Shown piece after piece: positions 14,643 through 37,470 of a DNA stretch of 64,000 nucleotides. A program made the position numbers and the translations under genes. How positions within the stretch are numbered: position 1 is the stretch's first letter; each line of letters begins with the position of its first letter. Source of the stretch: an uncultured Hyphomicrobiales bacterium (lineage in GTDB: Bacteria > Pseudomonadota > Alphaproteobacteria > Rhizobiales > Beijerinckiaceae); NCBI GenBank assembly GCA_903861645.1, contig CAIOVE010000018.1:1-64000 (forward strand). Direction: 5' to 3'. The notes under the pieces are model-generated. The model searched no databases and had not been told where the DNA came from. It worked only from the letters and a program-made list of their open reading frames with translations.

Positions 14643-14650
14643 GTCGCCTC

Positions 14651-21395: not shown

Positions 21396-22010
21396 TCAGC
21401 GCGGCGGGATTTCGGCCAGAATTTCGGCGACCGCGGCGATCCGCGCGACGGGTCGAAGCGCCTCGATCGAGACCTCGTGAACCCGGCGCGAGAAGGTCGC
21501 GCACCCGTCCTCGAGCACGGTGATATCGAACTCCCGCACATGCGCGTCGCGCACGGTGGAGGCGACGCCGCCATTGGTGACGATTCCAGCGCAGATCAGC
21601 CGCGTGACGCCCGACTTGCGCAGCACGTATTCCAGTCGCGACATGTAAAAGGCCGAATAGGCGATTTTCTCGACGCAGGCGTCGGCGGGCGCGAGTTCAT
21701 CCACCAGCGCCTGACCCCACGCGCCCGGCGCGAAATCGCCCTTGCGCAAAAACGGTCGCAACTGTTTGAGATGTGGCGAGATGATCGGTTCGCCGCCACG
21801 ACCCGGCGGCAGCGTGAACAGGGTCGCCACGATCATGCCGCCGCCCGCCCTGATCGCGTGGGCCAGCGGCGCGAGGCGCGCCGGCAACGCGGCGATATCG
21901 TCGCTCTTCTGCCCGCCACGCCCGTAGGCGCCGTCGGGATGAATGAAATCGTTCTGCAAATCGAGCAGCAGCAGCGCCGATTCGCGCATGTCGAACGCGG
22001 CGCCGCTCAT
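21396..22010 (-). CDS. Isochorismatase-fold hydrolase lacking the nucleophilic cysteine
   Basis: 204 residues. Asp17 (LLLLDLQNDFIHPDG) and Lys115 (VEKIAYSAFY) match two of the catalytic triad of isochorismatase-like hydrolases. The usual cysteine in the GIxTNxCVxST motif is Gly148 (GIVTNGGVASTVRDAH). Amidases of this family (nicotinamidase, maleamate amidase) need that Cys; isochorismatases such as PhzD use Asp/Lys without it. So an acid-base vinyl-ether-type or other reaction is more likely than amide hydrolysis. It overlaps the upstream lyase gene by four bases and ends the GntR-led operon. Confidence 0.82.
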   Translation of the reverse strand: MSGAAFDMRESALLLLDLQNDFIHPDGAYGRGGQKSDDIAALPARLAPLAHAIRAGGGMIVATLFTLPPGRGGEPIISPHLKQLRPFLRKGDFAPGAWGQALVDELAPADACVEKIAYSAFYMSRLEYVLRKSGVTRLICAGIVTNGGVASTVRDAHVREFDITVLEDGCATFSRRVHEVSIEALRPVARIAAVAEILAEIPPR

Positions 22011-22885
22011 CGCCCGCCGCCCTCGTAGCGCTTGCCGCGCGCCAATATGCCGGCGGTGCCCAGCATGTCGTTCAATCCATCGAAATCATACATGCGGTTG
22101 CGGAAACCGTCGCTGGTGCCGTCGCGCGCGAGACCCGCGTAGAAATCGCGCGCGGCGAGCGCCAGCGCGCGCACGATGCCGCCGGGAAAGATCACCAGCG
22201 CGAAACCCATTTCCTGCAATTGCGCCGCCGGCGTCACCGGCGTCGCGCCGCCCTCCACCATGTTGGCCATCAAGGGCGTCGCGCGGTCGAAGGCGCCGCC
22301 GACCCGCGCGAGATCGTCGCGGCTTTTCGGCGCCTCGATGAACAGCATGTCGGCGCCCGCCGCGCGATAGGCGCGCGCGCGCTCGGTGGCGCGCTCGAAT
22401 CCTTCCACCGCGACGGCGTCCGTGCGCGCGATGACGAGTGTTTCCCGATCGCGACGACTGTCGACGGCGGCGTGTATCTTGCCGACCATTTCGTTGGTCG
22501 AGACCAGTTCCTTGCCGGCGAGATGCCCGCAGCGTTTCGGCAGCACCTGATCCTCGAATTGCAGGGCGCTCGCGCCGGCGCGCTCGAACACCCGCATGGT
22601 TCGCTCGACGTTGAGCGCGTTGCCGTGGCCTGTGTCCGCGTCGACGATGAGCGGCGTGTCGACCCGCTCGCGGATGTGCGACAGCGTGTCGGCGACTTCC
22701 GTCATCGTCACGAGGCCAATGTCGGGGCGGCCCAGCTTCGTGTAGGCAATGCCCGCGCCCGAAAGATAAAGCGCCTCGAAGCCCGCATCCGCCGCGATCG
22801 ACGCGGTCAACGCGTCGAATACGCCGGGCGCGACGACGATGGGCGAGCGCGCAAGCCGCGCGCGCAAGGTCTCGGGCGTGCTCAT
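22007..22885 (-). CDS. Isocitrate lyase/PEP mutase-family carbon-carbon lyase (dimethylmalate/methylisocitrate lyase-like)
   Basis: 292 residues from the ATG at 22885, which overlaps the gntR stop as ATGA. Family features: PGVFDALTASIAADAGFEAL, metal-binding VDADTGHGN, and the lyase signature EDQVLPKRCGH with the catalytic Cys. Then come GKELVSTNEMVGKI and VIARTDAVAVEGFERA. Such enzymes cleave 2-methylisocitrate, 2,3-dimethylmalate or similar hydroxy-acids into pyruvate-type products, or decarboxylate oxaloacetate. Being in one locus with an aconitase-family hydratase suggests it cleaves the hydratase product, as Dml follows dimethylmaleate hydratase in nicotinate fermentation (inference). 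Confidence 0.85.
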   Translation of the reverse strand: MSTPETLRARLARSPIVVAPGVFDALTASIAADAGFEALYLSGAGIAYTKLGRPDIGLVTMTEVADTLSHIRERVDTPLIVDADTGHGNALNVERTMRVFERAGASALQFEDQVLPKRCGHLAGKELVSTNEMVGKIHAAVDSRRDRETLVIARTDAVAVEGFERATERARAYRAAGADMLFIEAPKSRDDLARVGGAFDRATPLMANMVEGGATPVTPAAQLQEMGFALVIFPGGIVRALALAARDFYAGLARDGTSDGFRNRMYDFDGLNDMLGTAGILARGKRYEGGGR

Positions 22886-23664
22886 GCGTCGGCTCCAGCC
22901 ATTTCGCGCGCCGCCGGCGCCCAACGGACTCCCGCCGCGCCCGCCTCGCGCGCCAGCGCCATGCGGAATGTGTAGCGATCGGGCCGATAGAGCGCGCGCA
23001 GATATTCAATGCCGCGCCCGCTGGCGTCATGCACCACGCGCGTCATGGCGATCAGCGGCGCGCCGATGGCGACGTCAAGCGCGGCAGCGGCCTCGGGCGT
23101 GGCGAGTTCCGCGGAAATGTCCTGCGTCGCGTGATCCGCGGCGAGTCCATTGAGTTCGAGCAGGGCGAGCAGCGGACGCCGCGCCAGATCGCGGCGCGTG
23201 TAGAGACGCCCGATGTCTTCCGGCACGCAGGTTGTCAGAAACGAGAACGGCGCGCCGTCGATGAGCCGACGTCGCAGCGACCATTGCACGCGTTCGCCGG
23301 GCTTCAGCCCGAGCGCGCGGGCGACGTCCGGCAGGGGATCGCGATAGTCGAACTCCAGCAGATTCACTTGCGTCGTGCGACCCATCTCGACGAGATGGGT
23401 CATCACGTCGGCGAGCTCCACCGCGATGGGTTGCGGCTTGCCGCGATCGGAGAGGAACGTGCCGGCGCCCTGCCGCCGCTCGATCAGGCCCTCTTCCTCG
23501 AGCAGCGCCAGCGCGCGCCGCAAGGTCACGCGCGAGACGCCGAATTCCGCCGCGAGCGACTGCTCGCCGGGCAGGCCGCCATCGCGATCGAACGCGCCCC
23601 GGGCGATCCGGTCGCGCAGGGTCAGGTGGATTTGCCTCGTCTTGGAGAGGTCGGCGACCGCCAT
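22882..23664 (-). CDS. GntR-family regulator, HutC subfamily
   Basis: 260 residues. The winged helix spans about residues 10-78: RQIHLTLRDRIARGAF, LPGEQSLAAEFGVSRVTLRR and the wing IERRQGAGTFLS. A UTRA effector domain follows (about 95-240), with VQWSLRRRLIDGAPFSFLTT and RALYRPDRYTFRM, which marks the HutC subfamily. It is first in an operon with the lyase and isochorismatase-fold genes and is divergent from the LeuC/D-like genes. The TTGTC-N10-GACAA site in the gap, repeated upstream of the gene at 35347, is its likely operator. Confidence 0.9.
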   Translation of the reverse strand: MAVADLSKTRQIHLTLRDRIARGAFDRDGGLPGEQSLAAEFGVSRVTLRRALALLEEEGLIERRQGAGTFLSDRGKPQPIAVELADVMTHLVEMGRTTQVNLLEFDYRDPLPDVARALGLKPGERVQWSLRRRLIDGAPFSFLTTCVPEDIGRLYTRRDLARRPLLALLELNGLAADHATQDISAELATPEAAAALDVAIGAPLIAMTRVVHDASGRGIEYLRALYRPDRYTFRMALAREAGAAGVRWAPAAREMAGADA

Positions 23665-23692
23665 TGCAAACCATCCGGAAATGCGGTTTCAA

Positions 23693-23734
23693 TTGTCCAC
23701 ATTATAAGACAAGTGGCCGATGACAAGTGGCCGA
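23693..23734. promoter_or_regulatory. Probable GntR operator plus tandem repeat in the divergent promoter region
   Basis: TTGTC (23693-23697) and GACAA (23708-23712) are spaced by 10 bases; the right side reads TAAGACAA. The 13-mer GACAAGTGGCCGA occurs twice in tandem (23708-23720 and 23722-23734), giving a 14-base period. All lie between the divergent gntR (23664) and leuC-like (23754) starts. The same TTGTC-N10-GACAA arrangement is at 35304-35323. Confidence 0.6.
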
Positions 23735-23753
23735 AGCGTGGAGACGCGGTGGG

Positions 23754-25160
23754 ATGGCGACGCCCCGCACCATCATCGACAAGATCTGGGACGCGCACGC
23801 CATCGTCACGCGCGTGGATGGTGACACGCTGCTGTGGATCGACCGGCATTTCGTGCATGAAGGCTCGCACCACGGTTTCGGACAGGTCGCGGCGCGGGGC
23901 GCGCGCGTCGAGCGCCCGGACCTCACCTTCGGCGTCGCCGACCATTACGCGCCGACGCGGCCCAACGCCGTCCAGTCGCCGGAAGTCCGTGCCATGGTCG
24001 CCAAGCTCGACGCCAATACGCGGACCCATGGCGTGCGCAACTTCGGCATCGGCGATCCGCGCCGGGGCATCGCCCACGTGGTCGCGCCGGAACTAGGCCT
24101 GACGCTGCCCGGCCTCGCCATCGTGTGCGGCGACAGCCACACGTCCACCCATGGCGCGCTGGGAGCCTACGCCTTCGGCATAGGCGCTTCGGAAGTCGCC
24201 CACGTGCTGATGACGCAGACGATCTGGCAATCGCGTCCGCGCCGCATGCGCATCCGCGTCGATGGCGCGCTGACGCCCGGCGTCGCCGCCAAGGACATGG
24301 CGCTGGCGCTGATCGAGCGGCTGGGCGCGGGATACGCGCGGGGCTGCGCCATCGAATACGCGGGCTCGGCGATCCGCGGTCTTTCCATCGAGGGTCGTCT
24401 GACCCTGTGCAATCTGTCGATCGAACTGGGATCGCGGCTGGGACTCGTCGCGCCGGACGAGACAACCTTCGCCTATCTGCGCGATCGGCCCTTTGGCCCC
24501 GGGGGCGCGGCCTTCGAGGCGGCGGTCGCCAACTGGCGCGAACTCGCCAGCGATGATGAGGCCGCCTTCGACGTCGACATCGCCATCGATGGCGCGGCGA
24601 TCCCGCCGACGGTGACCTGGGGCGTCAATCCCGAGCAGGCGGCGCCGATCACGGCCACGGTGCCCGATCCCGACCGCGCGCCCGATCCATTGAAGGCCGA
24701 GGCGTGGCGCGACGCCATCGACTACATGGGCCTGCGCGCCGGCATGAAGCTGACGGAAATCCGGGTCGACAGGGTTTTCATCGGCTCCTGCACCAACAGC
24801 CGCATCGAGGATCTGCGCGCGGCGGCGGCCGTGCTGACGGGCCGCAAGGCCGTCGTGCCGGGCCTCGTGTCGCCCGGCTCGATGACGGTGAAGCGCCGGG
24901 CCGAGGCGGAAGGTCTCGACCGCGTGTTCATCGACGCGGGGCTGGAATGGGCGGACGCCGGTTGCTCCATGTGCGTCGGCATGAATGGCGAAGAGGTGCC
25001 GCCCGGCGAACGCTGCGCCTCGACGACGAACCGCAACTTCAAGGGGCGACAGGGCAAGGGCAGCCGCACCCATCTGATGTCGCCCGCCATGGCGGCCGCG
25101 GCCGCGGTCACCGGCCATCTCACCGATGCGCGGCCCCTGCTTGCCGGGAGGCGCCCATGA
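23754..25160 (+). CDS. LeuC-like large subunit of an aconitase-family hydro-lyase
   Basis: 468 residues from the ATG at 23754; an upstream in-frame GTG at 23727 lies in the repeat region. The three [4Fe-4S] cysteines are present: one in FIGSCTNSRIEDLRAA and two in the CxxC of AGCSMCVGMNGEEV. VCGDSHTSTHGALGAYAFGI is the family active-site block. LeuC makes 3-isopropylmalate from 2-isopropylmalate; relatives (DmdA, maleate or citraconate hydratases) hydrate substituted maleates. Its placement opposite gntR-lyase rather than with leuB points to the catabolic type (inference). True leuC should be elsewhere in the genome. Confidence 0.88.
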   Translation: MATPRTIIDKIWDAHAIVTRVDGDTLLWIDRHFVHEGSHHGFGQVAARGARVERPDLTFGVADHYAPTRPNAVQSPEVRAMVAKLDANTRTHGVRNFGIGDPRRGIAHVVAPELGLTLPGLAIVCGDSHTSTHGALGAYAFGIGASEVAHVLMTQTIWQSRPRRMRIRVDGALTPGVAAKDMALALIERLGAGYARGCAIEYAGSAIRGLSIEGRLTLCNLSIELGSRLGLVAPDETTFAYLRDRPFGPGGAAFEAAVANWRELASDDEAAFDVDIAIDGAAIPPTVTWGVNPEQAAPITATVPDPDRAPDPLKAEAWRDAIDYMGLRAGMKLTEIRVDRVFIGSCTNSRIEDLRAAAAVLTGRKAVVPGLVSPGSMTVKRRAEAEGLDRVFIDAGLEWADAGCSMCVGMNGEEVPPGERCASTTNRNFKGRQGKGSRTHLMSPAMAAAAAVTGHLTDARPLLAGRRP

Positions 25161-25786
25161 CGCCGTTCACCTCGCTGGAGGCGCCGGCCTGCCCGCTGGG
25201 GCTCGCCAATGTCGACACCGACCAGTTGATCCCCGCGCGCTTCATGCAGACGCCGCGCGCCGAGGGTTACGGCAAATTCCTGCTGCATGATCTCAGGCGC
25301 GACGAGGCGGGCGCGCCGAAAACAGGTTTTCCCTTGAACGACCCGCGCTACGCCGGCGCGCGCGCGATGATCGCGCGCAAGAATTTCGGCTGCGGCTCGT
25401 CGCGCGAGGCGGCGGTCTATGTGCTGGTCGACAGCGGTTATCGCTGCGTGATCGCGCCGAGCTTCGGCGATATTTTTTCGTCGAACGCCATCAAGAACGG
25501 TCTTCTGCCGGCCATCGTCTCGGAGGCCGACGCCGACGCGCTGCTCGCCAACGCCTCCATCGTCGCCGGCGGCGCGCTGCGCGTCGATCTCGCCGAACAG
25601 ACCATCGTCGCGGGCAACCTTGTCGTGCCTTTCACGGTCAGAACCGACTGGAAGCAACGTTTGCTCAACGGCTGGGACGACGTCGATCTGACGAAATCCT
25701 TCGCGCGGGACATCGCCGCCTTCGTCGCCGCCGACGCGAAGCTGCGGCCATGGGCGCGACCCGTCGCGCCCGACGGAGAGAACTAG
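25157..25786 (+). CDS. LeuD-like small subunit of an aconitase-family hydro-lyase
   Basis: 209 residues, starting at an ATG that overlaps the LeuC-like stop (ATGA) with GGGAGG 6 bases upstream. The swivel domain is recognised by ANVDTDQLIPARFM near the N-terminus, ARKNFGCGSSREAAVYVL and APSFGDIFSSNAIKNGLLP. The length matches the bacterial LeuD of about 200 residues rather than the short archaeal form. Together with the large subunit it should hydrate or dehydrate a substituted malate. Its stop overlaps that of the convergent 696-residue membrane protein. Confidence 0.88.
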   Translation: MTPFTSLEAPACPLGLANVDTDQLIPARFMQTPRAEGYGKFLLHDLRRDEAGAPKTGFPLNDPRYAGARAMIARKNFGCGSSREAAVYVLVDSGYRCVIAPSFGDIFSSNAIKNGLLPAIVSEADADALLANASIVAGGALRVDLAEQTIVAGNLVVPFTVRTDWKQRLLNGWDDVDLTKSFARDIAAFVAADAKLRPWARPVAPDGEN

Positions 25787-27873
25787 CCGCGCGCGCGACG
25801 GCCTTCCCATAGCCAGGCGGCGAGCACGCCCGCGAGCAGCACGATCAGGCCAACAAAACCGATCGCCAGCGGCGCGACGCCGACGCCCACCACGACGCTC
25901 GCGCCCGCGCGCTTCACGCCGATGTAATCGGCGCCGCCGTAGAGCGGGCTTTCGCGCATGGCCGCGAAGCGCGGCAGGACGATCTCGTCGCCGGTTCCTG
26001 TTCCGATGCGGCGCGTCGTGCCGCCCGTTGATTCCGCCAGCGCGCGCAGATGCTCCGTCGTCGAGACGACTTCCTGAAACTCGCGCGGATTTTCCGGTCC
26101 GACGTTGACGAGCGAGCTCAGTTCGCCGTCGGTCAGCCTGTAAAGGCCGAATTCCTCGACCTTCACGCTCGCGCGCGAGACGCCGGGCGTCGAGGCCGCC
26201 AGCGTCACGACCCGCGTCGCGCCCGAGGGCGCCGTGAGCGTCACGGGCGGCGTTTCGTTTTTCAGCGTCTGGCGCTCGATCGAAATCTCGCGCCCTCGCG
26301 CGGTGGCGCGCAACGCCTCTTCCTCCAGTTCCGGTTCCTTCATCAGCCAGTGCGCGAGACGGCGCATCAGGTCGATATGCGGTCCGCCGCCCTGATAGCC
26401 GCGCGCCCACAGCCACATCTGGTCCGTCAGCAACAGGGCCACGCGCCCCTTGCCCTCGCGCGACAGCAGCAACAGCGGCTTGTCGTCGGCGCCCGACAAC
26501 ACGGGCACGCCGCGCAGCCGCTCGGTGGCGACCAACCGGTACCATTCGCTCCACGCGGGCGGATTGACCTCCGAGCCCGGCAAGTCCCGCGTGACCGGGT
26601 GCTTTTGTCCCTCCGCGGTGATCGCGGCGCGGAACGGACGTTCGATCACCGCGCCCGTGGGCTTGGCCGGCGCGATGCGGCCAAGCGGCGAATAATACAA
26701 CCCGTCGGGCGTCGAATAATCCGGCCCCGTCGCCATCAGCAAGGCGCCGCCATCGCGCACATAGCGCACGATGTTGTCGAAATAGACCTGCGGCAGAATC
26801 GTCTGCGTCGAATAGCGATCGAAAATGATCAGGTCGAATTCGGTGATCTTGCGTCCGAAAAGATCGGCCGTCGGGAACGCGATCAGCGACAGTTCGTTGA
26901 TCGGCGTGCCATCCTGCTTGTCCGGCGGACGCAGGATGGTGAAATGCACGAGATCGACATTGGCGTCGGACTTGAGCAGGTTGCGCCACGCGCGTTCGCC
27001 GGCGTGCGGCTCGCCCGACACGAGAAGCACCTTCAGCTTGTCGCGCACGCCCTCGATGGTCACGACGGCCTTGTTGTTCAACGTGGTCAGTTCATTCGGC
27101 AGCGGCGCGACATCGAGTTCGACGACGTTGGGACCGCCGTGCTCGATGCGCACCGTGGCGCGAAACGTCGCGCCGGGCGCGACGCGCTGGGAAATGATCC
27201 GTTGACCGTCGCGACTGATGACGACGTCGGCGGGTTCGCCGCGATCGCCGCTGTCGAGCACGCGCGCGACGATGGTCTGATCCCGTCCGACGATGCCGAA
27301 CCGCGGCGCCTCGACGAGTTCGATGCGACGGTCGCGCTCGCCCGCGTGGCCGGTGATGAAGGCATGCAGCGGCGCCTTGAACCCGAGCGCCTCGGCGCTC
27401 GCGGGAATGTCGTGCACGACGCCATCGGTCACCAGAATGGCGCCGCCGACGCGCTCCGGCGGCACGTCGGCGAGCGCTGAATTCAACGCGCCGAACAGGC
27501 GCGTGCCATCGGCGCCGGATTCATCGTCGGTTCCGCCATCGACAAAGCGCGCCTCGATATTGCCGAGCGCCTCGAGTTTTTTGGCGATCTCCTCGCGGGC
27601 GCGATCGGTTTGCGCCTTGCGCTCGCCGATGGACTGGCTGCCGCTGCGGTCGAGCACGACGGCGACGACATCCTTGAGCGGATCGCGATCCTCGCGCACG
27701 AGCGAGGGATCGGCCAGCGCCAGCAGGATCAGCGCGAGGCCGAGCGCGCGCAGCCACGCGCCGCGCCGACCGGAGACAATCATCAGGCCGACGACAACAA
27801 CCGCCGCGAGCGCCAGCGCGACCAGCAACGCCAGGGGAACGAGCGGCGCGAAGGACAGATTGAAATTCGTCAT
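25783..27873 (-). CDS. Membrane-anchored VWA/glutamine-amidotransferase-like protein of the MoxR operon
   Basis: 696 residues. Two hydrophobic helices near the N-terminus (about 10-32 and 40-57) and one at the C-terminus (about 660-688) frame a large periplasmic part. Residues about 65-190 look like a von Willebrand A domain (VAVVLDRSGSQSIGERK, GGAILVTDGVVHD). The middle region LIIFDRYSTQTILPQVYFDN followed by YVRDGGALLMATG resembles the class I glutamine-amidotransferase-like domain found in these operons. The start overlaps the upstream gene's stop by one base (TGATG). The function is not established; in this gene order it is presumed to work with MoxR in envelope protein maturation. Confidence 0.75.
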   Translation of the reverse strand: MTNFNLSFAPLVPLALLVALALAAVVVVGLMIVSGRRGAWLRALGLALILLALADPSLVREDRDPLKDVVAVVLDRSGSQSIGERKAQTDRAREEIAKKLEALGNIEARFVDGGTDDESGADGTRLFGALNSALADVPPERVGGAILVTDGVVHDIPASAEALGFKAPLHAFITGHAGERDRRIELVEAPRFGIVGRDQTIVARVLDSGDRGEPADVVISRDGQRIISQRVAPGATFRATVRIEHGGPNVVELDVAPLPNELTTLNNKAVVTIEGVRDKLKVLLVSGEPHAGERAWRNLLKSDANVDLVHFTILRPPDKQDGTPINELSLIAFPTADLFGRKITEFDLIIFDRYSTQTILPQVYFDNIVRYVRDGGALLMATGPDYSTPDGLYYSPLGRIAPAKPTGAVIERPFRAAITAEGQKHPVTRDLPGSEVNPPAWSEWYRLVATERLRGVPVLSGADDKPLLLLSREGKGRVALLLTDQMWLWARGYQGGGPHIDLMRRLAHWLMKEPELEEEALRATARGREISIERQTLKNETPPVTLTAPSGATRVVTLAASTPGVSRASVKVEEFGLYRLTDGELSSLVNVGPENPREFQEVVSTTEHLRALAESTGGTTRRIGTGTGDEIVLPRFAAMRESPLYGGADYIGVKRAGASVVVGVGVAPLAIGFVGLIVLLAGVLAAWLWEGRRARG

Positions 27874-30671
27874 CAGTGCGCCAGCCTTTCAAGCAGGTCG
27901 CGCACATGCACCTGATCGGCCTTGTAGTTGCCGGTGAGCGTGTACATCACGAGATTGACGCCGGCGCGCAGCGCCATCTCGCGTTGTCGTCCCGTGCCCG
28001 GCGTCAGCGGAAACAACGGTTGGCCCTCGCGCGTCACCGCCCAGGCGGCGGCGAGGTCGTTCGACGTGATGATCAGCGGCGACACGCTGTCGCTCGACCG
28101 CACGGGGCGATTGGCGCCGTCGCCAGCCTCGGCGGGCAGCGCCTCGATCCATGTCTGGCCGATGGTCGTGCGCCCGACGAAGGAGTCGAGCAGGTAGAAT
28201 GTCTTGGTCACGACATGATCGCGCGGCACGGGCTCCAGCTCGGGCACGTCGACATTGTCGAGCAGCTTGCGCAGCCACGCCTGCTCGGGCGTCGGCGGAC
28301 CGCCGGCGCGCGCGTTCAGCGCGTCGCGCGTGTCGAACACGATCATGCCGCCCTGCTTCATGTAATCGGAGATTTTCGCCACGGCCTCGGCGGACGGCAG
28401 CGGCCGCTCGGCGACGATCGGCCAGTAGATGAAGGGATAGAAGGCGAGTTCGTCGCGGGCGGGATCAAGTCCCATGGGCTCGCCGGGAGTCAACGCGGTG
28501 CGCGCGCCAAGCGCCCGCGACAGGGCGGCGAGACCGACCTGACTGGCCTCGTCGACCTTAGCGTCGCCGGTGACGATATAGGCGAGCCGCGTCTTCAGCG
28601 CGGCGTCCATGTCGCGCTTGCTCGTCGTCTGGGCGTGTCCGGGCGCCGGCGTCGCGAGCACGCCCAGCGCGAACCCCATGGCGAGGATGGCGGCGGCGGC
28701 GACGGATCGACGGCCGCGCCAGCGCGGGCCGCCCGCCAGCCACAGCGAGGCCAGCGCGTCGGCGATCAGCAGCGCCGCCGCCAACACGACCAGCAAGGGG
28801 CGCAAATCGATCGCGTCGGCCTTTTGCAATGTATCCATGCGCAGGTTGAGACCGGAAAAATCGGCGGGCGCGAGGCGATCGGTCGGCGCCAGCGGATTGA
28901 CCGCGACCAGCGCCTCGGGAGGCCCGTAGAAGCCCGGCGGATGTTCGGCGGTGGCGCCGCCGTCGTAATGGGCGGGGATGGGTCGCGCCGTGAGGGGCGG
29001 CGGCCCCATGGCGCCGAAGCCATCGAGCACGCGGGTCGGCGCCACGGTGTTCTCGCGCGCCGCCTCGCCATTGACAAAGTCGCCCTTCGTTCCGGCCTCG
29101 GCGCCGGTCGACATCGAAACGACCCGACGGAGGATATCGACGAACATGCCGGACAGCGGCAGGTTGGACCACGTCGTGTCGGCGGTGACGTGAACCAGCA
29201 CGATGAGCCCCTTGCCGCGCCGTTCGGCGGTGATCAGCGGCGTGCCGTCGACAAGCGCCGCCCAGGTCTTGCCGGGCAGGCCCGCCTCGGGCTCGGCCAG
29301 CACCTGCCGGTTCACCGCCACCTCGCGGGTCACGGGCACGCCAAAAAGCGGACTATCCTTGTCGAAGGGTGCCAACGCCTTGGGCGATTCCCACGACAGT
29401 GAGCCGCCGAGCACGCGGCCGCCGCGACGCAGGCGCACGGGCACGAGATCGTCCGACGCGTTGGCCAGGCGCGTGCCGGCGAAGCGCAGCAGCAAGCCGC
29501 CATCCTCGATGAATTTCACGAGGCGGTCGTGGGCCGCGCCGGCGACGACGCCCACGTCGGCCAGTACGAGCACGGACACCTGATCGTCGAGCAGCGACAG
29601 GACGGGATCGCCACGACCGAGACGGGCCTCGCGCACGTCAGCGAAGGGCGCGAGCGCCTTCGCGACATAATAGGTGGGCGACAGCAACGGCTGGGCCGTG
29701 TCCGCCGTCTCGCCCGAAACGAGCCCAACGCGGCGGCGCTTCCAGCGCGAATCGAGCAGCGTGACGGCGCCGGTCGAGCGTTCGTCGACGATCTCGACGC
29801 GGGCGATGTCGTTACGCAGTTCCAGCGGCAGGTCGAAGCGCGCGGTCGCCTCGGTCTTGCCGGCGAGGTCGAAGGCGGTCTCGCCGATCATCACGCCCTT
29901 CATGTCGAGCGCGCGCAGGGTTCCCGTGGCGCGTCCGGCGGTCGTCGGGCGGATGACGGTCGCCTCCAGCGCGCCAGCGTTGTTTTGCGCGCCGGCGATG
30001 GCGAGTTGCGGCCGGTCGAGACTCACCGCGCGCACCTCGCGCGCGCCAGCGGCGGCGACCAGCGCCGTCGCGAATTCACGCGCCCCGCCGGAGGCGAGGC
30101 CATCCGTCAGCCAGACGATTTCCGCGTCCGCGTTGGCGGCGAGAAACCGCTCGGCGGCGGGCAGGGCCGCCATGCGGTCGGGAATGACGGGCGCGGGCTT
30201 GAGCGCGCGCAGCCGGTCCATGGCGGTCGTGGCGTCGGCGATGGCGATATCGCGGGGCCCCGCCGAAAGAGGCAAGAGCGCGCTGGCGCGGCCAAGGCGA
30301 CCCGCGCCGAGGATGCGCTCGCCGGCGTCGCGGACGCGCAGATCCCATGTCGGGGCGGCGGGCCATCCGTCGTCGAGGATGACCAGCAGCGGCCCCTTGC
30401 CGCCGAGACCCGCGGGCGGCGGGTTCCAGATCGGTCCGGCCATGGCCAGAATGACCAGCGCCGCCAACGCGAGCCGCAACAGCATCAGCCACCACGGCGT
30501 GCGCGCGGGCGTCTCGTCCTTCGGCTTGAGGTCGAGAATGAGTTTCAGCGGCGGAAAGGCGATCTGGCGCGGGCGCGGCGGCGTAATCCGCAGCAGGTAA
30601 TAGAGCGCCGGCAGCAGGGCCAGCGCCGCGAGCACCATGGGAACGGAAAAAGCGAGCGGCAATCCGGCCAT
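27873..30671 (-). CDS. DUF4159 protein with N-terminal BatA-type membrane domain
   Basis: 932 residues from the ATG at 30671, which overlaps the DUF58 stop as TGATG (a GTG at 30674 is the alternative). The N-terminal about 95 residues form a BatA-type pair of helices: VPMVLAALALLPALYYLLRI and WWLMLLRLALAALVILAMAG. A VWA-like part with VILDDGWPAA follows. Two more helices appear at about 630-690, and the C-terminal 210 residues match DUF4159 (ALKTRLAYIVTGD, FYPFIYWPI, GGMIVFDTRDA). It is the third gene of the moxR operon in alphaproteobacteria. Biochemical role unknown. Confidence 0.82.
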   Translation of the reverse strand: MAGLPLAFSVPMVLAALALLPALYYLLRITPPRPRQIAFPPLKLILDLKPKDETPARTPWWLMLLRLALAALVILAMAGPIWNPPPAGLGGKGPLLVILDDGWPAAPTWDLRVRDAGERILGAGRLGRASALLPLSAGPRDIAIADATTAMDRLRALKPAPVIPDRMAALPAAERFLAANADAEIVWLTDGLASGGAREFATALVAAAGAREVRAVSLDRPQLAIAGAQNNAGALEATVIRPTTAGRATGTLRALDMKGVMIGETAFDLAGKTEATARFDLPLELRNDIARVEIVDERSTGAVTLLDSRWKRRRVGLVSGETADTAQPLLSPTYYVAKALAPFADVREARLGRGDPVLSLLDDQVSVLVLADVGVVAGAAHDRLVKFIEDGGLLLRFAGTRLANASDDLVPVRLRRGGRVLGGSLSWESPKALAPFDKDSPLFGVPVTREVAVNRQVLAEPEAGLPGKTWAALVDGTPLITAERRGKGLIVLVHVTADTTWSNLPLSGMFVDILRRVVSMSTGAEAGTKGDFVNGEAARENTVAPTRVLDGFGAMGPPPLTARPIPAHYDGGATAEHPPGFYGPPEALVAVNPLAPTDRLAPADFSGLNLRMDTLQKADAIDLRPLLVVLAAALLIADALASLWLAGGPRWRGRRSVAAAAILAMGFALGVLATPAPGHAQTTSKRDMDAALKTRLAYIVTGDAKVDEASQVGLAALSRALGARTALTPGEPMGLDPARDELAFYPFIYWPIVAERPLPSAEAVAKISDYMKQGGMIVFDTRDALNARAGGPPTPEQAWLRKLLDNVDVPELEPVPRDHVVTKTFYLLDSFVGRTTIGQTWIEALPAEAGDGANRPVRSSDSVSPLIITSNDLAAAWAVTREGQPLFPLTPGTGRQREMALRAGVNLVMYTLTGNYKADQVHVRDLLERLAH

Positions 30672-31612
30672 CACGCGCCCTCCGCCGGGGCGGCGACCGC
30701 GCCCTGCATGGCCTCGACCCGCAGGCGCAGATCAAGCAGCGCCCGCGACGCGGGCCGGTCGGTACGGTGCAGGGCGAAGGTCCAGCCGCGCGAGCGGCAG
30801 GCCTCGCGCACCGCGTCGCGATGGGCGGCGAGGCGGGCGATGTATTCGGCGCGAAAGCTTCGCGCCTCGCCGACGCGCAACCGCGCGCTCGAGTCGACAT
30901 CGAGAAATTCGGTGTGGCCGTCGAAGGGAAACGTCTCCTCGACGGGATCGGCGATCATCAGCAGGTGGCCCATGGCGCCGCGCGCGGCCATGCCGTGAAT
31001 GGTCCGCGCGATCTCGTCGGGCGGCGACAGGAAATCGCCAATGAGAATCGCCTGCGTGCGGGGCGCGAGCGCGTCGGCGGGCGGCAGTTCGCGAGCGCCG
31101 CCGCCGACCCGCTCGTCGAGGATCATCGCCTCGGCGAAGCGCTCGATGATGCCGCGCGTCGCCAGCGCGCGCGTCAGGCCGGGGATGCCGACGCGCTCGC
31201 CGCCGCGCACCAAGAGGTCGGCGGTCGCCATGCCCAGCGTCACCGCGCGGTCGAGCTTCGACTGCATGGCGAGCGAGGAGACAAAGGCCATTGACGGCGA
31301 ACGGTCCATCCAGATCCAGACCGTGTGCGCCGCCTCCCATTCGCGCTCGCGCACATAGACCCGATCATCCCTGGCGGAGCGGCGCCAGTCGATGCGGGTG
31401 GTCGATTCGCCCCAGACGAAGGGCCGGAATTGCCAGAAGGTTTCGCCGACGCCCGCGCGCCGACGTCCGTGCACGCCATGCATGACCGTCGCCGCGACCT
31501 CCCGCGCCGACACGACCAGCGCCGGCAGGCGCCGGGCCAGATCGAGCGCGCCGGTCTGGTGGCGGGCGTCGACGCCGCTGTCCGATGGATCAAGGAGCCG
31601 GGCGTCGGCCAT
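30671..31612 (-). CDS. DUF58 domain protein
   Basis: 313 residues. DUF58 is marked by FRPFVWGESTTRIDWRRSAR and the VWA-like MIDAS region TVWIWMDRSPSMAFVS, followed by LLVRGGERVGI and AILIGDFLSPPDE. In MoxR systems DUF58 proteins are presumed to present clients to the ATPase. The start lies 4 bases after the moxR stop, and the stop overlaps the DUF4159 start. No transmembrane helix is evident, so it is probably cytoplasmic. Confidence 0.88.
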   Translation of the reverse strand: MADARLLDPSDSGVDARHQTGALDLARRLPALVVSAREVAATVMHGVHGRRRAGVGETFWQFRPFVWGESTTRIDWRRSARDDRVYVREREWEAAHTVWIWMDRSPSMAFVSSLAMQSKLDRAVTLGMATADLLVRGGERVGIPGLTRALATRGIIERFAEAMILDERVGGGARELPPADALAPRTQAILIGDFLSPPDEIARTIHGMAARGAMGHLLMIADPVEETFPFDGHTEFLDVDSSARLRVGEARSFRAEYIARLAAHRDAVREACRSRGWTFALHRTDRPASRALLDLRLRVEAMQGAVAAPAEGA

Positions 31613-31616
31613 GCGG

Positions 31617-32627
31617 TCAGCCGAGCCGCGCCGCGAGGCGGGCGATGACGCCGGAGATGGTCTCGCCCTCCGCGCGGGCGGCGAAGGTCAGGGCCATGCG
31701 GTGCTTGAGCACCGGCTCGGCCAGCGCGCGCACGTCGTCGATGGAGGGCGCGAGGCGGCCGTCGATGAGGGCGCGGGCGCGCGTCGCCAGCATCAGCGAT
31801 TGCGCGGCGCGCGGACCGGGGCCCCAGGCGATGTGTTTCGTCAGTGCGCCATCGCCCTCGCCCGGACGCGCGGCGCGCACGAGATCGAGAATGGCGTCGA
31901 CCACGCTGTCGCCCACCGGCAGCCGGCGCACGAGCCGCTGCGTCGTCATGAGGTCATCGGCTGTCATGGCGGGGCGGGCGCTGGCGTCGGCCTCGCCCGT
32001 GGTCTCGATGAGAATGCGGCGCTCGGCGGCGCGGTCGGGATAGAGCACGTCGATCTGCATGAGGAAGCGGTCGAGCTGCGCCTCGGGCAGGGGATAGGTG
32101 CCCTCCTGCTCCAGCGGATTTTGCGTCGCCAGCACGTGGAAGGGCCTCGGCAGGTCGTGCCGCTCGCCCGCGACGGTGACGTGATATTCCTGCATGGATT
32201 GCAGAAGCGCGCTCTGGGTGCGCGGGCTGGCGCGGTTGATTTCGTCGGCCATGAGCAATTGCGCGAAGATCGGACCGCGCACGAAGCGGAAGGCGCGCTT
32301 GCCGGATTCGCCCTCCTCCATGATTTCCGAGCCGAGAATGTCGGCGGGCATCAGGTCGGGCGTGAACTGCACGCGGCGCGCGTCGAGGCCGAGCACGACG
32401 CCAAGCGTTTCCACGAGTTTCGTCTTGGCGAGGCCGGGCACGCCGACCAGCAGGCCATGACCACCCGCGATGAGGGTCACCAGCGCCTGTTCGACGACGG
32501 TTTCCTGACCGAAAATGACGGCGCCGATCGCGGCGCGGGCGGCGGCGACCTTTTCCAGCGCCGCCTCGGCCGTTCGCGCGACGGCCGATTCCAGCGAGGT
32601 GGCGTTGTTGTCCTGCGTCGCGCTCAT
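31617..32627 (-). CDS. MoxR-family AAA+ ATPase
   Basis: 336 residues from the ATG at 32627 (GGGAG 5 bases upstream); the longer form from 32654 adds nine residues with no ribosome site. Walker A is GHGLLVGVPGLAKTKLVE, Walker B LLMADEINRASPRTQ, sensor 1 FHVLATQNPLEQEGTYPLPE, and the lid follows RFLMQIDVLYP. MoxR ATPases act as chaperones for metal-cofactor insertion or envelope complex assembly. It is the first gene of a four-gene operon (moxR-DUF58-DUF4159-VWA/GATase). Confidence 0.92.
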   Translation of the reverse strand: MSATQDNNATSLESAVARTAEAALEKVAAARAAIGAVIFGQETVVEQALVTLIAGGHGLLVGVPGLAKTKLVETLGVVLGLDARRVQFTPDLMPADILGSEIMEEGESGKRAFRFVRGPIFAQLLMADEINRASPRTQSALLQSMQEYHVTVAGERHDLPRPFHVLATQNPLEQEGTYPLPEAQLDRFLMQIDVLYPDRAAERRILIETTGEADASARPAMTADDLMTTQRLVRRLPVGDSVVDAILDLVRAARPGEGDGALTKHIAWGPGPRAAQSLMLATRARALIDGRLAPSIDDVRALAEPVLKHRMALTFAARAEGETISGVIARLAARLG

Positions 32628-32785
32628 TCGCTCTCCCGCCGGGGTTGATTCCATTCGGCTTGCGTCCGCACCATAGGCGCGAAATCCGGTTCATGGATAG
32701 AATAGGGGCTTCCGCGGACTTGTCGATCCGACCCGCGGCTGCGAGCTTGGTTAATCCGGTTGAACAGGGACATTGGCGCGAAACC

Positions 32786-33388
32786 ATGGCGAGCGAAGCC
32801 AACGACCCTCGGGGCGCGACGGGTCTCGACGGCATTATCGGCGCGGCGACGCGCGCCGGCGGCCGCGGACCCGCGCCCGTGCATCTGTGGAATCCGCCCT
32901 ATTGCGGCGACATCGGCCTGCGCATCACGCGCGACGGCGTCTGGCATTATCGCGGCTCGCCCATCGCGCGACCCGCGCTGACGCGGCTTTTTTCGACGAT
33001 CCTGCGCAAGGACCCCGAACGCCACGTGCTGGTGACGCCGGTCGAAATGGTGCTGGTCGACGTCGAGGACGCGCCCTTTCTGGCCGTTGAAATGATCGTG
33101 ACGGGCGCGGGCGCGACGCAAATTATTCGCTTGCGCACGAACATGGACGACTGGATCGAGCTTGGCCCCGAACATCCCTTGCGCTTCGAGCGCGGCCCCG
33201 CCGACGGGATGAAGCCCTACGCGCTCGTGCGCGGCGATTTATGGGCGCTGGCGACGCGCGCCGTCTATTACGAACTGATAGAACGCACCGAGACGCGCGA
33301 CATCGGCGGTCGCGCGATGCTGGGCGTCGCCTCGGCGGGACAATTTTTCGTGATATGCCCGGCGGACGAGATCGGGGAGCCGGAATGA
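32786..33388 (+). CDS. DUF1285 family protein
   Basis: 200 residues from the ATG at 32786; earlier in-frame starts at 32645 and 32693 are possible, since no start has a strong ribosome site. DUF1285 features are visible: VHLWNPPYCGDIGLRITRDG near residue 35, WHYRGSPIARPALTRLFSTI and RHVLVTPVEMVLVDVEDAPF. The family is common in alphaproteobacteria and of unknown function. It overlaps the nudix gene by four bases and forms an operon with nudix and cca, a recurrent arrangement in Rhizobiales. Confidence 0.85.
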   Translation: MASEANDPRGATGLDGIIGAATRAGGRGPAPVHLWNPPYCGDIGLRITRDGVWHYRGSPIARPALTRLFSTILRKDPERHVLVTPVEMVLVDVEDAPFLAVEMIVTGAGATQIIRLRTNMDDWIELGPEHPLRFERGPADGMKPYALVRGDLWALATRAVYYELIERTETRDIGGRAMLGVASAGQFFVICPADEIGEPE

Positions 33389-34041
33389 ACACCCAGACGC
33401 CGACGCCGGCGCCGTTTTCAGCCGAGGATGTCAGCCGACGCGCGGCGACCCGCCTGCTGGCCGCGCCCGCGTTCGAGGATCATCGCGAACACTGGGGCGA
33501 CCACGCGCTGAACCAGAACGACCACTGGCGCGCGCGCGCCTCGCGGGAGCGGCGCCCGGCCGCCGTGCTGGCGCCCATCGTCGCGCGACCGGAGGGCGCG
33601 ACGGTGCTGCTCACCCAACGCGCGAGCCATCTGCGCAATCACTCCGGCCAGATCGCCTTTCCCGGCGGCAAGATCGACGCGGGCGAAACGCCGTTGGCGG
33701 CGGCGCTGCGCGAGGCGCGCGAGGAAATCGGGCTCGATCCCGCCTTCGTGCGGCCAGTCGGCTATCTCGATCCCTATGTCACCGGCACGGGGTTTCGCAT
33801 TCATCCCGTTGTCGCGGTCGTCGAGCCGGGATTCACGCTCGACATCAACGCCGACGAGGTCGACGACGCCTTCGAGGCGCCGCTGGCGTTTCTGATGAAC
33901 CCGGAGAATCATCAACGGCATTCGCGCATGGTCGAGGGCGCCGAACGGCGTTTTCACGCCATGCCGTGGCGCGACCGCTACATCTGGGGCGCGACCGCCG
34001 GCATGTTGCTCAACCTGTATCAGCGGCTTTACGGGCCATGA
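33385..34041 (+). CDS. Nudix hydrolase, CoA pyrophosphatase type
   Basis: 218 residues from the ATG at 33385, with GGGAG 6 bases upstream. The Nudix box GGKIDAGETPLAAALREARE continues to EIGL at about residues 94-117. It is immediately preceded by the CoA-pyrophosphatase signature LLTQRASHLRNHSGQIAFPG. Such enzymes cleave CoA or its derivatives to 3',5'-ADP and 4'-phosphopantetheine. Start and stop overlap both neighbours (ATGA), giving tight coupling in the DUF1285-nudix-cca operon. Confidence 0.92.
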   Translation: MNTQTPTPAPFSAEDVSRRAATRLLAAPAFEDHREHWGDHALNQNDHWRARASRERRPAAVLAPIVARPEGATVLLTQRASHLRNHSGQIAFPGGKIDAGETPLAAALREAREEIGLDPAFVRPVGYLDPYVTGTGFRIHPVVAVVEPGFTLDINADEVDDAFEAPLAFLMNPENHQRHSRMVEGAERRFHAMPWRDRYIWGATAGMLLNLYQRLYGP

Positions 34042-35279
34042 GCGACGCCGCCATCGCCGCGCTGTTGCGCGAACCAAAACTCGCCCGGGCGCTGGCGATG
34101 CTCAACGGCGACGGCGAGGAAACGCGCGTTGTCGGCGGCGCCGTGCGGAACGCCTGGCTCGATGAACCGGTCGCCGATGTCGATCTCGCGACGACCGCCA
34201 CGCCCGACGAAGTGACGCGCCGCGCGCGCGCCGCCGGCGCGAAGGTCGTTCCCACCGGTTACGAGCATGGCACGGTGACGGTCATCATCGACGGGCGACC
34301 CTTCGAGGTCACGACATTGCGCGAGGATGTCGAGACCGACGGACGTCGCGCGGTCGTCCGTTTCGGTCGCGATTTCGCCGCCGACGCGCGACGGCGCGAT
34401 TTCACCGTGAACGCGCTGTTTCTCGACGTCCATGGCGCCGTGCATGACGATGTGAACGGTCTCGCCGATCTCGCCGTCCGCCGCGTGCGCTTCATCGGCG
34501 AGGCGCGCCAGCGCATCCGCGAGGATTATCTGCGCATCCTTCGTCTGTTTCGCTTTCACGCCGCTTATGGCGCGGGCGAAATCGACGGGGAGGCCTTCGC
34601 CGCCGCGGTGGCCGAACGCGCCGGGCTCGCGACGCTCTCGCGCGAACGGGTGCGGAGCGAAGTGCTGAAACTTCTCGTCGCCCGACGCGCCGGCGAGGCG
34701 GCGCGCGTCTTTTCGGAGTCGGGCCTGCTGGGACCGCTGCTCGGCGGCGTTCCCATGCCGGGGCGTTTGGCGCGCCTGATCGAGATTGAAAACGCCCGCG
34801 GCGTCGCGCCCGACCCGATCCGTCGTCTCGCCGCGCTCGCGATGCTCGTGGCGGAGGACGCCGCGCGCCTGCGCGACTCCCTGCGCCTGTCGAACGCGGA
34901 AGGCGACCGCCTGGCGAAGGCCGCCGAGGCGCTCGCCGAATGGCATGGACGCGCAACGCCGCCGGCGGCCGGCGCGCTGCGGGAAGCCTTGTTCCATCAT
35001 GGCCGCGTGGCGTGCCTCGACGCGCTCGCGCTCGCGCAGGCCGAGGCGCGCGCCGCGCCGGACGCGCCGGAATGGCTCTCGGCGTGGCGGTTTCTGTCGG
35101 ATACGCCGGAGCCGCGCCTGCCCTTCGGCGGCGCCGATTTGCTGAAACGCGGCGTGCCGGCGGGACGCGCCATGGGCGACATGCTCAAACGCCTGCAAGC
35201 CGCGTGGATACGCGCCGGTTTTCCCTCCGACCCGCGCGATCTCGCGCGATTGCTGGACGAAGCGTCAACCGGCGACTGA
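34038..35279 (+). CDS. cca: CCA tRNA nucleotidyltransferase
   Basis: 413 residues from the ATG at 34038, overlapping the nudix stop. The class II nucleotidyltransferase head shows VVGGAVRNAWLDEPVADVDL with the DxD catalytic pair. DARRRDFTVNALFLDVHG follows, and then REDYLRILRLFRFHAAYG, the nucleotide-selecting block. It adds or repairs the 3' CCA of tRNAs, or only A if split with a CC-adding partner. The tRNA-Ser in this window already encodes CCA, so its role may be repair. Length is normal for alphaproteobacteria. Confidence 0.94.
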   Translation: MSDAAIAALLREPKLARALAMLNGDGEETRVVGGAVRNAWLDEPVADVDLATTATPDEVTRRARAAGAKVVPTGYEHGTVTVIIDGRPFEVTTLREDVETDGRRAVVRFGRDFAADARRRDFTVNALFLDVHGAVHDDVNGLADLAVRRVRFIGEARQRIREDYLRILRLFRFHAAYGAGEIDGEAFAAAVAERAGLATLSRERVRSEVLKLLVARRAGEAARVFSESGLLGPLLGGVPMPGRLARLIEIENARGVAPDPIRRLAALAMLVAEDAARLRDSLRLSNAEGDRLAKAAEALAEWHGRATPPAAGALREALFHHGRVACLDALALAQAEARAAPDAPEWLSAWRFLSDTPEPRLPFGGADLLKRGVPAGRAMGDMLKRLQAAWIRAGFPSDPRDLARLLDEASTGD

Positions 35280-35302
35280 CGCGTTTTGACGGCGGCGATC
35301 AA

Positions 35303-35324
35303 GTTGTCTTATGTTTAAGACAAC
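35303..35324. promoter_or_regulatory. Perfect inverted repeat, probable GntR operator for the monooxygenase operon
   Basis: GTTGTCTTA (35303-35311) and TAAGACAAC (35316-35324) are exact 9-base inverted arms separated by 4 bases. The site ends 22 bases before the ATG at 35347. Its TTGTC-N10-GACAA core equals the one in the gntR divergent promoter at 23693-23712, and TAAGACAA is shared exactly. Confidence 0.7.
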
Positions 35325-35346
35325 GTCTTCCGACGCTGGAGCGGGC

Positions 35347-36555
35347 ATGTCATCGGCGCGAACCGACTCACAGGTGTTCATTTCCGGCGCCGGTCCGGTG
35401 GGGCTGTGCCTCGCCCTGCTGCTGGCGCGCGCGGGCGTCGACGTGCGCGTCTGCGAGGCGGAGCCGACGATATCGGAGGATCTGCGCGCCTCGACCTTTC
35501 ACCCGCCGACGCTTGACCTGCTGGAGCCGCTCGGCGTCACGGCGACGTTGCTGGAACAGGGCCTGATTTGCCCGCACTGGCAGATTCGCCTGCACCCGAC
35601 GGGCGAACGCGCGGTGTTCGATCTTTCCGTCCTCGCCGGGGACACCGGCCATCCCTATCGCTTGCAGGTCGAGCAATGGAAACTTTCGCGCGCGCTGCTC
35701 GACGCGCTGCGCGCCGAACCGCGCGCCGAGGTGACGCTTGGCGCGCCGGTGGTCGGCATGTCGCAGGACAACGATTGCGTCGCCATTGAAATCGAGCGCG
35801 ACGGACGACGCGAAACCCATCGCGCGCTGATCGCGGTGGGCGCGGATGGGGCGCGCAGCTTCATCCGGCGCGCGCTCGACATTCCCTTCGAGGGCGAGAC
35901 CTATCCCGAAATCACGCTGCTGCTGACCACTCTGTTTCCCTTCGAGGATCATCTCGAGGGCTTGTCGAACGTCACCTATTGCTGGAAGGCCGGCGGTAAT
36001 TTCAGCCTGCTGAAAGTGCCCGGACGCTGGCGCGTGTCGATCTATCCACGCGAGGACCTGCCGATCGAGGAACAACTCGCCGACAAGATGATTCAGGCGA
36101 GCATGAACGACATCGTGCCGCGGTCCGAGCCATGGGTTCTCAACGAGAAGCGCGATTATCGGGTACACCAGCGCATCGTTCCGACCTATGTCAGGGGTCG
36201 CGTGGCGCTGGCCGGCGACGCCGCGCATCTCAACAGCCCGTCGGGCGGCATGGGGCTCAACGGCGGCATTCAGGACGCCTTCGAACTCGCCGCCGCGCTG
36301 ACGGATATTCTCGGGCGCGGCGCGCCCCTGTCGCGGCTCGATCTCTACGACCGGCGCCGGCGCCCCATCGCGCGTGACCAGATCATCGCGCAGGCCGATC
36401 GCAACCGCGCCCGCATGCGCGAGAAAGACCCGGCGCGACGCATGGAAATGCTGGCCGAGCTTCAGGCGATCACCGCGGATCGCGCGCGGCTGCGTGACTA
36501 TCTGCTGAAATCATCGATGATCGAGGGGTTGCGTCAGGCCGCGCGCATCGTCTGA
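35347..36555 (+). CDS. FAD-dependent monooxygenase (PF01494 family)
   Basis: 402 residues from the ATG at 35347 with GGAG 5 bases upstream; the longer form from 35311 would start inside the palindrome. FAD motifs: FISGAGPVGLCLALLLARAG, the DG motif AVGADGARSFIRRALD and the GD motif RVALAGDAAHLNSPSGGMGL. It is a single-component class A hydroxylase using NAD(P)H and O2 on an aromatic or N-heteroaromatic ring. The operator upstream links it to the GntR locus at 22-25.8 kb, and a maleate-isomerase-like gene follows by 37 bases. The substrate is unknown. Confidence 0.85.
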   Translation: MSSARTDSQVFISGAGPVGLCLALLLARAGVDVRVCEAEPTISEDLRASTFHPPTLDLLEPLGVTATLLEQGLICPHWQIRLHPTGERAVFDLSVLAGDTGHPYRLQVEQWKLSRALLDALRAEPRAEVTLGAPVVGMSQDNDCVAIEIERDGRRETHRALIAVGADGARSFIRRALDIPFEGETYPEITLLLTTLFPFEDHLEGLSNVTYCWKAGGNFSLLKVPGRWRVSIYPREDLPIEEQLADKMIQASMNDIVPRSEPWVLNEKRDYRVHQRIVPTYVRGRVALAGDAAHLNSPSGGMGLNGGIQDAFELAAALTDILGRGAPLSRLDLYDRRRRPIARDQIIAQADRNRARMREKDPARRMEMLAELQAITADRARLRDYLLKSSMIEGLRQAARIV

Positions 36556-36592: not shown

Positions 36593-37354
36593 ATGAGCGT
36601 CGAATACGCGCGCAAGGGACTGATGGGCGTGCTGACGCCGCAGGCCAACACGACCGTCGAGCCGGAATACGCGGTCATGACGCCGCCGGGCTACGCTTTC
36701 ATCAACGCGCGCATGTTGTCGCCGCACAAGACGATCGAGGAACGCCTCGTCGACTATTTCACCAATCTCGACAGGTTCGCGCGCCAGTTCGCCAACGCGC
36801 CGATTGGCGCCATGGCCTTCGCCTGCACGGGCACGTCGTATCTCGCCGGTCGCGAGGCGGAGGACAAGGCGCTGGGCGACCTGTCACGCTCCCTCGGCAT
36901 TCCCGTCATCAGCGCCGCGACGGCCGTGGTGATCGCGCTCAACGCGCTGGGCGCCCGGCGCATCGCGTTGGTGTCGCCCTACGAGGGGCGGCTCGACGCG
37001 GCGTGCACGCCCTATTGGGAGTCACGTGGGTTCGATGTCGCGGTGAAGACCAGCGCGGCGCGGCCGGGCGAGAATTTTCATCCGATCTATTCCCTGCCGT
37101 CGGGCGCCGCGCGGCAGGCGCTCGATGAAATCACCGATGACAAGCTCGACGCCATCGTCATGCTGGGCACGGGCATGCCGACGCTCGCGCCCATCGCCGC
37201 GACGCCGTTTCATCGCGGCGCGCCGGTGCTGTCATGCATGTTCGCGCTGATCTGGGCCGGAACGGTCCTGCTCGACGGCGTCGAGCCGAGCGCGGACAGT
37301 CTGCGACAGTGGCTGACCGGCGACTGGTGGCGGGGACGCCTGCCGCCCGCCTGA
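36593..37354 (+). CDS. Asp/Glu racemase superfamily protein, maleate isomerase / arylmalonate decarboxylase-like
   Basis: 253 residues, ATG with GGAGG 6 bases upstream. The fold is recognised by GLMGVLTPQANTTVEPEYAV, MAFACTGTSYLAG with Cys78, and IALVSPYEGRLDAACTPYWE. Maleate isomerases and racemases use two cysteines (about 76 and 194), and arylmalonate decarboxylase keeps only the second. Here the first is kept, but the second region reads VMLGTGMPTLAP, with glycine/threonine instead. So a standard two-cysteine racemase is unlikely. It shares an operon with the flavin monooxygenase and a regulon with the hydratase/lyase genes, which suggests work on a maleate-like acid (inference). Confidence 0.8.
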   Translation: MSVEYARKGLMGVLTPQANTTVEPEYAVMTPPGYAFINARMLSPHKTIEERLVDYFTNLDRFARQFANAPIGAMAFACTGTSYLAGREAEDKALGDLSRSLGIPVISAATAVVIALNALGARRIALVSPYEGRLDAACTPYWESRGFDVAVKTSAARPGENFHPIYSLPSGAARQALDEITDDKLDAIVMLGTGMPTLAPIAATPFHRGAPVLSCMFALIWAGTVLLDGVEPSADSLRQWLTGDWWRGRLPPA

Positions 37355-37415: not shown

Positions 37416-37470
37416 GATTAGCTCATAGAGCGAATTTGATAGATTGATCGCTCTTGTGAAAGTCAGGCAT

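Follow-up and report, generated by a model that had tools for sequence, protein, structure and literature searches.

Two wide-spaced palindromes as probable operators of one GntR-linked catabolic regulon in an uncultured Hyphomicrobiales bacterium

Related regulators and pathways

Regulators of the HutC subfamily of GntR proteins (NagR/YvoA, DasR, HutC and PhnF) combine a GntR helix-turn-helix (HTH) domain with a UTRA domain, are encoded beside their targets and bind palindromic operators. According to the available text of PMC4494728, most operators of this subfamily follow GT-N4-AC (NyGTMTAKACNy), with published exceptions. Here we analyzed positions 1 to 64,000 of contig CAIOVE010000018.1 (assembly GCA_903861645.1) from an uncultured bacterium of the Hyphomicrobiales; this 64,000-nucleotide stretch is called the window. 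It carries two palindromes of the form TTGTC-N10-GACAA, one in the divergent region between a HutC-type gntR gene and a leuC-like gene (operator 1), the other before a flavin monooxygenase gene (operator 2). We propose that both are operators of one local regulon and that the HutC-type GntR probably binds them, with a probability of about 0.8. The same sites precede the same genes in related bacteria, so they are most likely the sites of one repressor.

The locus resembles the HutC subfamily in the domains of its regulator, in the position of the regulator gene beside its candidate targets and in its palindromic operators. However, these operators have GT-N12-AC, also in the conserved orthologous sites, and the typical GT-N4-AC is absent from them, which counts against binding by a regulator of this type. 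Because the subfamily contains exceptions, GT-N4-AC is not a strict criterion. One exception is SdhR, whose operator TCTTATGTCTTATATAAGACATAAGA has GTCTTA half-sites, GT-N10-AC spacing and extra outer repeats in the part of PMC4494728 that was available. Compared by operator motif alone, SdhR has the same GTCTTA half-site as the sites described here, whereas its centre is two bases shorter and its extra outer repeats set it apart. The available text of PMC3223726 does not mention SdhR. The present GntR is probably a wide-spaced case among HutC-type regulators, near the SdhR exception, and would aid in learning how operator spacing is chosen.

The closest described pathway is the lower pathway of nicotine degradation in Pseudomonas putida S16, which comprises HspB, Hpo, Nfo, Ami and Iso (available text of PMC3812094). 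The best solved matches were HspB and then PnpA for the monooxygenase, maleate isomerase for the isomerase-like protein and RutB for the isochorismatase-fold hydrolase, which gives the locus an amidase-fold gene as well. Instead of the remaining nicotine enzymes, the locus has a LeuCD-like hydratase together with a lyase. The genes scanned, which did not extend to the whole genome, included no recognisable dihydroxypyridine dioxygenase or (N-formylmaleamate) deformylase. A LeuCD-like hydratase paired with a lyase of the isocitrate lyase family also occurs in dimethylmaleate/dimethylmalate breakdown. The two enzyme families are the same here, and dimethylmalate lyase (3fa3) was the second-best solved match of the lyase, but the best was methylisocitrate lyase. 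A literature search found no description of this catabolic regulon, for which the present analysis provides a testable operator and gene list.

The two palindromes and their conservation

The original prediction placed TTGTC-N10-GACAA at 23693-23712 and 35304-35323, about 11.6 kb apart, and the sequence bore out both positions. As it had also stated, the second copy lies within a perfect inverted repeat with 9-bp arms, GTTGTCTTA (35303-35311) and TAAGACAAC (35316-35324), separated by the 4-nt spacer TGTT, and TAAGACAA is identical in both operators. A third exact copy, not listed there, was found at 26480-26499. It lies within a predicted coding sequence (25783-27873, minus strand) and has a GC-rich core. 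We rejected it as an operator; it is probably a chance match.

The window contained three exact matches in total. Allowing one mismatch, four were found against 0.88 expected, a number reached in 1 of 100 shuffles. These three were also the only exact matches in the whole genome (4,182,615 bases, 108 contigs), for which base composition predicts about 1.2; a reversed-pattern control gave one. Because three were found against these numbers, the bare 10-base pattern exceeds chance only modestly and is not strong evidence alone. When as many as three mismatches were allowed, the fuller form TTGTCTTA-N4-TAAGACAA occurred genome-wide at operator 2 (no mismatch) and operator 1 (three mismatches) and nowhere else, with one match in the control. 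The predicted genome-wide scarcity was confirmed for the fuller palindrome, found at two places only; for the bare pattern the support was weak.

We also scanned 101 genomes of the genus with TTGTCYTA-N4-TARGACAA, allowing one mismatch. Nine sites were found in eight genomes, against five in the reversed control. Six of the nine precede the monooxygenase gene, and the other three (in G001, in G093 and a second one in G022) are at chance level. The second near-match in G022 (L125, 1501-1520) lies before a UbiD-family decarboxylase gene.

Relatives of the monooxygenase were found at 28 loci in 24 of the 101 genomes, its own included. The orthologue set (n = 19) consisted of 18 loci with at least 60% identity and the 5' end present, plus the Rhodoplanes serenus locus L031. 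Two loci without the 5' end (G025 and G010) and eight below 60% were left out; L030 and G015:C181, being one contig, count as a single entry. A site with at most one mismatch was present within 150 bases upstream of the monooxygenase in 13 of the 19 orthologues, whereas 200 dinucleotide shuffles averaged 0.085 and never exceeded 1. Other spacings (6-9 and 11-14) matched only 0 or 1 of the 19 promoters, indicating that the spacing of 10 is fixed at this site. The sites in G040 and G038 (ATGTCTTTTCATTAAGACAG) had two mismatches, and no site with up to two mismatches was found upstream of the monooxygenase in G013, G020, G030 and G031. An additional exact TTGTC-N10-GACAA in G029 (L081, 8440-8459) lies within the reading frame of a substrate-binding protein.

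Eight of the 13 site-bearing monooxygenase promoters were aligned. The main conserved blocks were the operator and, 12-13 bases ahead of it, TTTGAC, which was invariant among the eight; in G003 the site is present and TTTGAC is absent. Among sites chosen for resemblance, neither GT nor AC of the core varied in the 11 distinct ones at the monooxygenase or in the 6 distinct ones on the gntR side. In G022 and G024 (TTGTCCTA and TAGGACAA), both arms have changed together, and these paired changes may fit a palindrome read by a dimer. A promoter scan of 35200-35400 found one core promoter (mean of shuffles, 0.0), and a weak terminator-like match also overlaps operator 2. The predicted -10 box lies under this operator, a position that suggests repression by occlusion.

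Across the operator, seven of eight relatives examined carry a gene for an NMT1-type ABC substrate-binding protein, and these seven proteins share 68-93% identity with one another. The Pfam NMT1 domain was seen in four of six translations scanned; the other two were an unrelated frame in G003 and a stretch in another frame in G047. Since this gene lies opposite the monooxygenase, one operator probably serves both directions in the relatives. In the window, an NMT1-type protein at 16.4-17.6 kb was considered as the counterpart and rejected (best alignments, 21-39% identity over 41-289 residues, E = 0.002-0.54).

On the gntR side, nine orthologues with at least 58% identity had upstream DNA. Eight of them (G000, G015, G017, G047, G023, G049, G033 and G003) have it in one common place, with 0-2 mismatches. 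Eight gntR promoters were aligned. The core GT and AC are kept in all eight orthologues with the site, and the right arm is often TACAA. The ninth is from R. serenus, where gntR lies downstream of the genes for the monooxygenase and the isomerase-like protein and lacks its own site. In G079, from another family, a site with one mismatch lies between leuC and a gene for a GntR with 53% identity. Conservation before orthologues, which had been proposed as a check, was therefore observed at both loci. The weight of the gntR-side evidence rests on the common position rather than on single sites. A pattern scan of 23600-23800 found no sigma-70-type promoter. Beside operator 1, a 14-base unit, GACAAGTGGCCGAT, is nearly duplicated at 23708-23734, which creates an extra GACAA half-site. 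At this insert, six of seven relatives in the promoter alignment have a gap and G003 has other bases.

The adjacent GntR and rival explanations

The regulator encoded beside operator 1 is of the HutC type, as originally predicted. It scored 65 bits against Pfam GntR (cut-off 27) and 105.7 bits against UTRA (cut-off 23.8), the domains of the HutC subfamily. It is not HutC itself, as its score against the HutC equivalog TIGR02018 was 111.1 bits, below the cut-off of 220, and none of the best 25 of 26 NCBIfam families matched reached its cut-off. The nearest solved relatives were NagR/YvoA, followed by 2ra5 and DasR. In NagR, Arg38, Arg48 and Gly69 contact bases, and two arginines read the two guanines of its ideal palindrome, as given in the available text of PMC4333415. 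Aligned to NagR, the GntR keeps Arg48 (Arg45) and Gly69 (Gly66), and Arg38 is replaced by Gln35. The SRVTLRR helix and Gln35 were common to all nine regulators above 58% identity. One guanine in these sites, against two for NagR, is compatible with the change from Arg38 to Gln; this fits but proves nothing.

We infer that this GntR binds the sites from its adjacency, from the site before gntR itself and from the co-occurrence of GntR and site. The monooxygenase site was present in nine of nine genomes with a close GntR and in two of five in which none was found (one-sided Fisher test, 0.027, ignoring relatedness and draft gaps). Among the five, G029 and G042 have the site, and G013, G020 and G030 do not. 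The count omits G022 and G024, with 42-45% homologues, and G031, G038 and G040, with a GntR of 46-47% identity beside the monooxygenase. The 42-45% homologues (L078 and L079) have the recognition helix SRITAKR instead of SRVTLRR, and upstream of them are 20-bp palindromes, TTGCTATAAAGCTATAGCAA and TTGCCATAAAGTTATAGCAA, of the same length with other bases. These two were picked from a noisy list; most of the imperfect palindromes that turned up ahead of distant homologues were noise.

A real shared operator might belong to a different regulator, such as a second UTRA GntR encoded elsewhere in the genome, and the adjacent GntR would then bind something else. Sites kept in G029, G042, G022 and G024, where no close GntR was found, would agree with this. 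In G024, the gene for a UTRA GntR of about 30% identity lies close to ATTTGTCTATATCAATAGACAAAT (L134, about 2285-2310), likewise spaced as TTGTC-N10-GACAA. The G022 counterpart of this GntR has a near copy (L136, about 1106-1125), and the present genome encodes two further UTRA proteins. However, gntR itself is preceded by the site in eight of nine close orthologues, and the fetched flanks of the genes for the two further UTRA proteins contain no site with at most one mismatch. In G013 and G029, moreover, where no close GntR was found, only one of two expected sites is left, which is what decay would produce once the regulator had been lost. We consider ownership by another regulator unlikely.

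Two explanations would do without any regulator. The conserved bases could be promoter elements (TTGAC and TATAAT) under selection for transcription. The monooxygenase palindrome retains its two arms, including ACAA past the -10 box, arms change in pairs in G022 and G024, and the spacing of 10 is fixed; these features make promoter elements a very improbable explanation, despite the overlap of operator 2 with the predicted -10 box and the TATAA held by the gntR-side sites. A chance recurrence of a 10-base pattern, over-read as a regulon, would match the genome-wide count, in which one of the three exact copies found against about 1.2 expected lies in a predicted coding sequence. It is contradicted by the presence of the site in 13 of the 19 orthologous promoters, where shuffles reached 1 at most, and by its similar position within them, and we give a chance recurrence almost no credence.

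Besides the operator spacing, several observations weigh against one regulon under the adjacent GntR. The monooxygenase orthologues of G013, G020 and G030 lack the site, as does a 53% orthologue in G004. The site is retained in G029, where the best GntR match in the genome is 28% identical, and in G042, where no UTRA protein was found and the contig ends in the ATPase gene, before the position of gntR. G022 and G024 retain strong symmetric sites and have only the 42-45% GntR homologues, elsewhere in the genome. G001 has a GntR (51% identity) with the SRVTLRR helix and no such site before its gene. In G047, the site has changed in one arm only. Symmetry is poor in the gntR-side sites (3-5 of 10 positions), and single sites with two mismatches are weak against mononucleotide shuffles (fractions 0.03-0.07); these single-region shuffles preserve base composition only, whereas those of the 19 orthologues preserve dinucleotides. 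As the gntR-side site holds TATAA, promoter constraint may explain part of its conservation. Shared ancestry of the promoters is left in by the shuffles.

Gene cluster, proposed mechanism and neighbouring genes

The original prediction tied the hydratase, lyase, isochorismatase-fold, monooxygenase and isomerase-like genes into one response, and the gene order of relatives supported this. G015, G047, G023, G033, G003, G029, G022, G024 and G013 each have the monooxygenase, isomerase-like, leuCD-like and hydrolase genes together in a single stretch. In G015, G047, G023 and G033 the stretch is complete, with the lyase, gntR and ABC permease and ATPase genes, and that of G015 also has hydantoinase A/B-like genes. 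G003 has the lyase and gntR without ABC genes, G029 the lyase and ABC genes without gntR there, and G013 the lyase only; G022 and G024 add none of these. Because the enzyme genes form one stretch in nine relatives, the two sites most likely belong to one regulon that has since been split. Its halves are separated here by an unrelated block (Table 1), presumably of BatA-like, DUF58, MoxR, DUF1285, NUDIX and CCA nucleotidyltransferase genes. In the relatives, the fetched stretches around the CCA end of the block contained no cluster genes. The shared operator thus links the parts of a broken cluster, and such an operator can flag a regulon after its cluster breaks apart. The present genome has no close relative of the L030 permease (best 39%) or of HyuA (best 41%).

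Table 1. Features of the two halves of the cluster (positions in the window)
Feature	Position	Strand	Remarks
Operator 1, TTGTCCACATTATAAGACAA	23693..23712		gntR/leuC divergent region; gntR-strand reading TTGTCTTATAATGTGGACAA, includes TATAAT
Operator 2, GTTGTCTTATGTTTAAGACAAC	35303..35324		perfect 9-bp arms, 4-nt spacer; before flavin monooxygenase
Predicted monooxygenase core promoter (TTGACG, 18 nt, TATGTT)	35286..35315	+	-10 wholly inside operator 2
gntR, HutC-type regulator (GntR HTH + UTRA), proposed repressor	22882..23664	-	Pfam UTRA 2.3e-30, GntR 4.8e-18
Isocitrate lyase/PEP mutase superfamily lyase (methylisocitrate or dimethylmalate lyase-like)	22007..22885	-	ATG overlaps gntR stop
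Isochorismatase-fold hydrolase (RutB-like), probable amidase	21396..22010	-	overlaps lyase stop
LeuC-like hydratase large subunit	23727..25160	+	start possibly ATG at 23754
LeuD-like hydratase small subunit	25157..25786	+	family profile matches
Flavin monooxygenase (FAD_binding_3)	35347..36555	+	nearest solved structures HspB, PnpA
Maleate isomerase/arylmalonate decarboxylase family protein	36593..37354	+	family and structure matches
Block parting the two cluster halves	25783..35279		CCA end sited elsewhere in 9/9 relatives

In the proposed mechanism, a GntR dimer would occupy both operators. At the monooxygenase, bound GntR would cover the predicted -10 box and block RNA polymerase. Operator 1 has TATAAT on the gntR strand and sits just ahead of leuC, so GntR may limit its own expression and that of leuCD there. 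The repressor would come off when its UTRA domain binds a small pathway molecule, which is probably some organic acid or amide. Five enzyme functions would then be induced jointly, namely the ring monooxygenase, the isochorismatase-fold amidase, the maleate-isomerase-like protein, the LeuCD-like hydratase and the lyase of the isocitrate lyase family. Because their start codons overlap the preceding stops, gntR, the lyase gene and the hydrolase gene probably form one transcript. The monooxygenase start fits where most orthologue alignments begin.

The enzymes suggest that a nitrogen-containing ring or imide may be converted to a maleamate-type and then a maleate-type acid, followed by hydration and cleavage. 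The LeuC-like protein scored 611.9 bits against the LeuC model (cut-off 560.25). Four LeuC-like genes were found in the genome, the other three being 52-53% identical to this one. These three paralogues and the neighbouring catabolic-type genes make it less likely that leuCD encode the isopropylmalate isomerase of leucine biosynthesis. As a tentative and rather doubtful extension, judged from the genes and sites, this GntR clade may have its own class of wide 20-bp operators (TTG-N14-CAA, here GT-N12-AC). It might control an undescribed aerobic pathway, in which a nitrogen-containing ring or imide would yield a substituted maleamate-type acid that is hydrated by the LeuCD paralogue and cleaved by the isocitrate-lyase-family enzyme.

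Other genes of the window were also recorded. A separate-looking cluster at 6058-18731 contains genes for two TctC receptors, an IclR regulator, an NMT1-type protein and a Gfo/Idh/MocA oxidoreductase, and two Rieske-domain genes, one of which is benzoate/anthranilate dioxygenase-like, below the cut-off. A tRNA gene lies at 18826-18912 on the minus strand. Directly after the isomerase-like gene, at 37444-38789, are genes for a PadR-family regulator and a siderophore-interacting-protein-like product.

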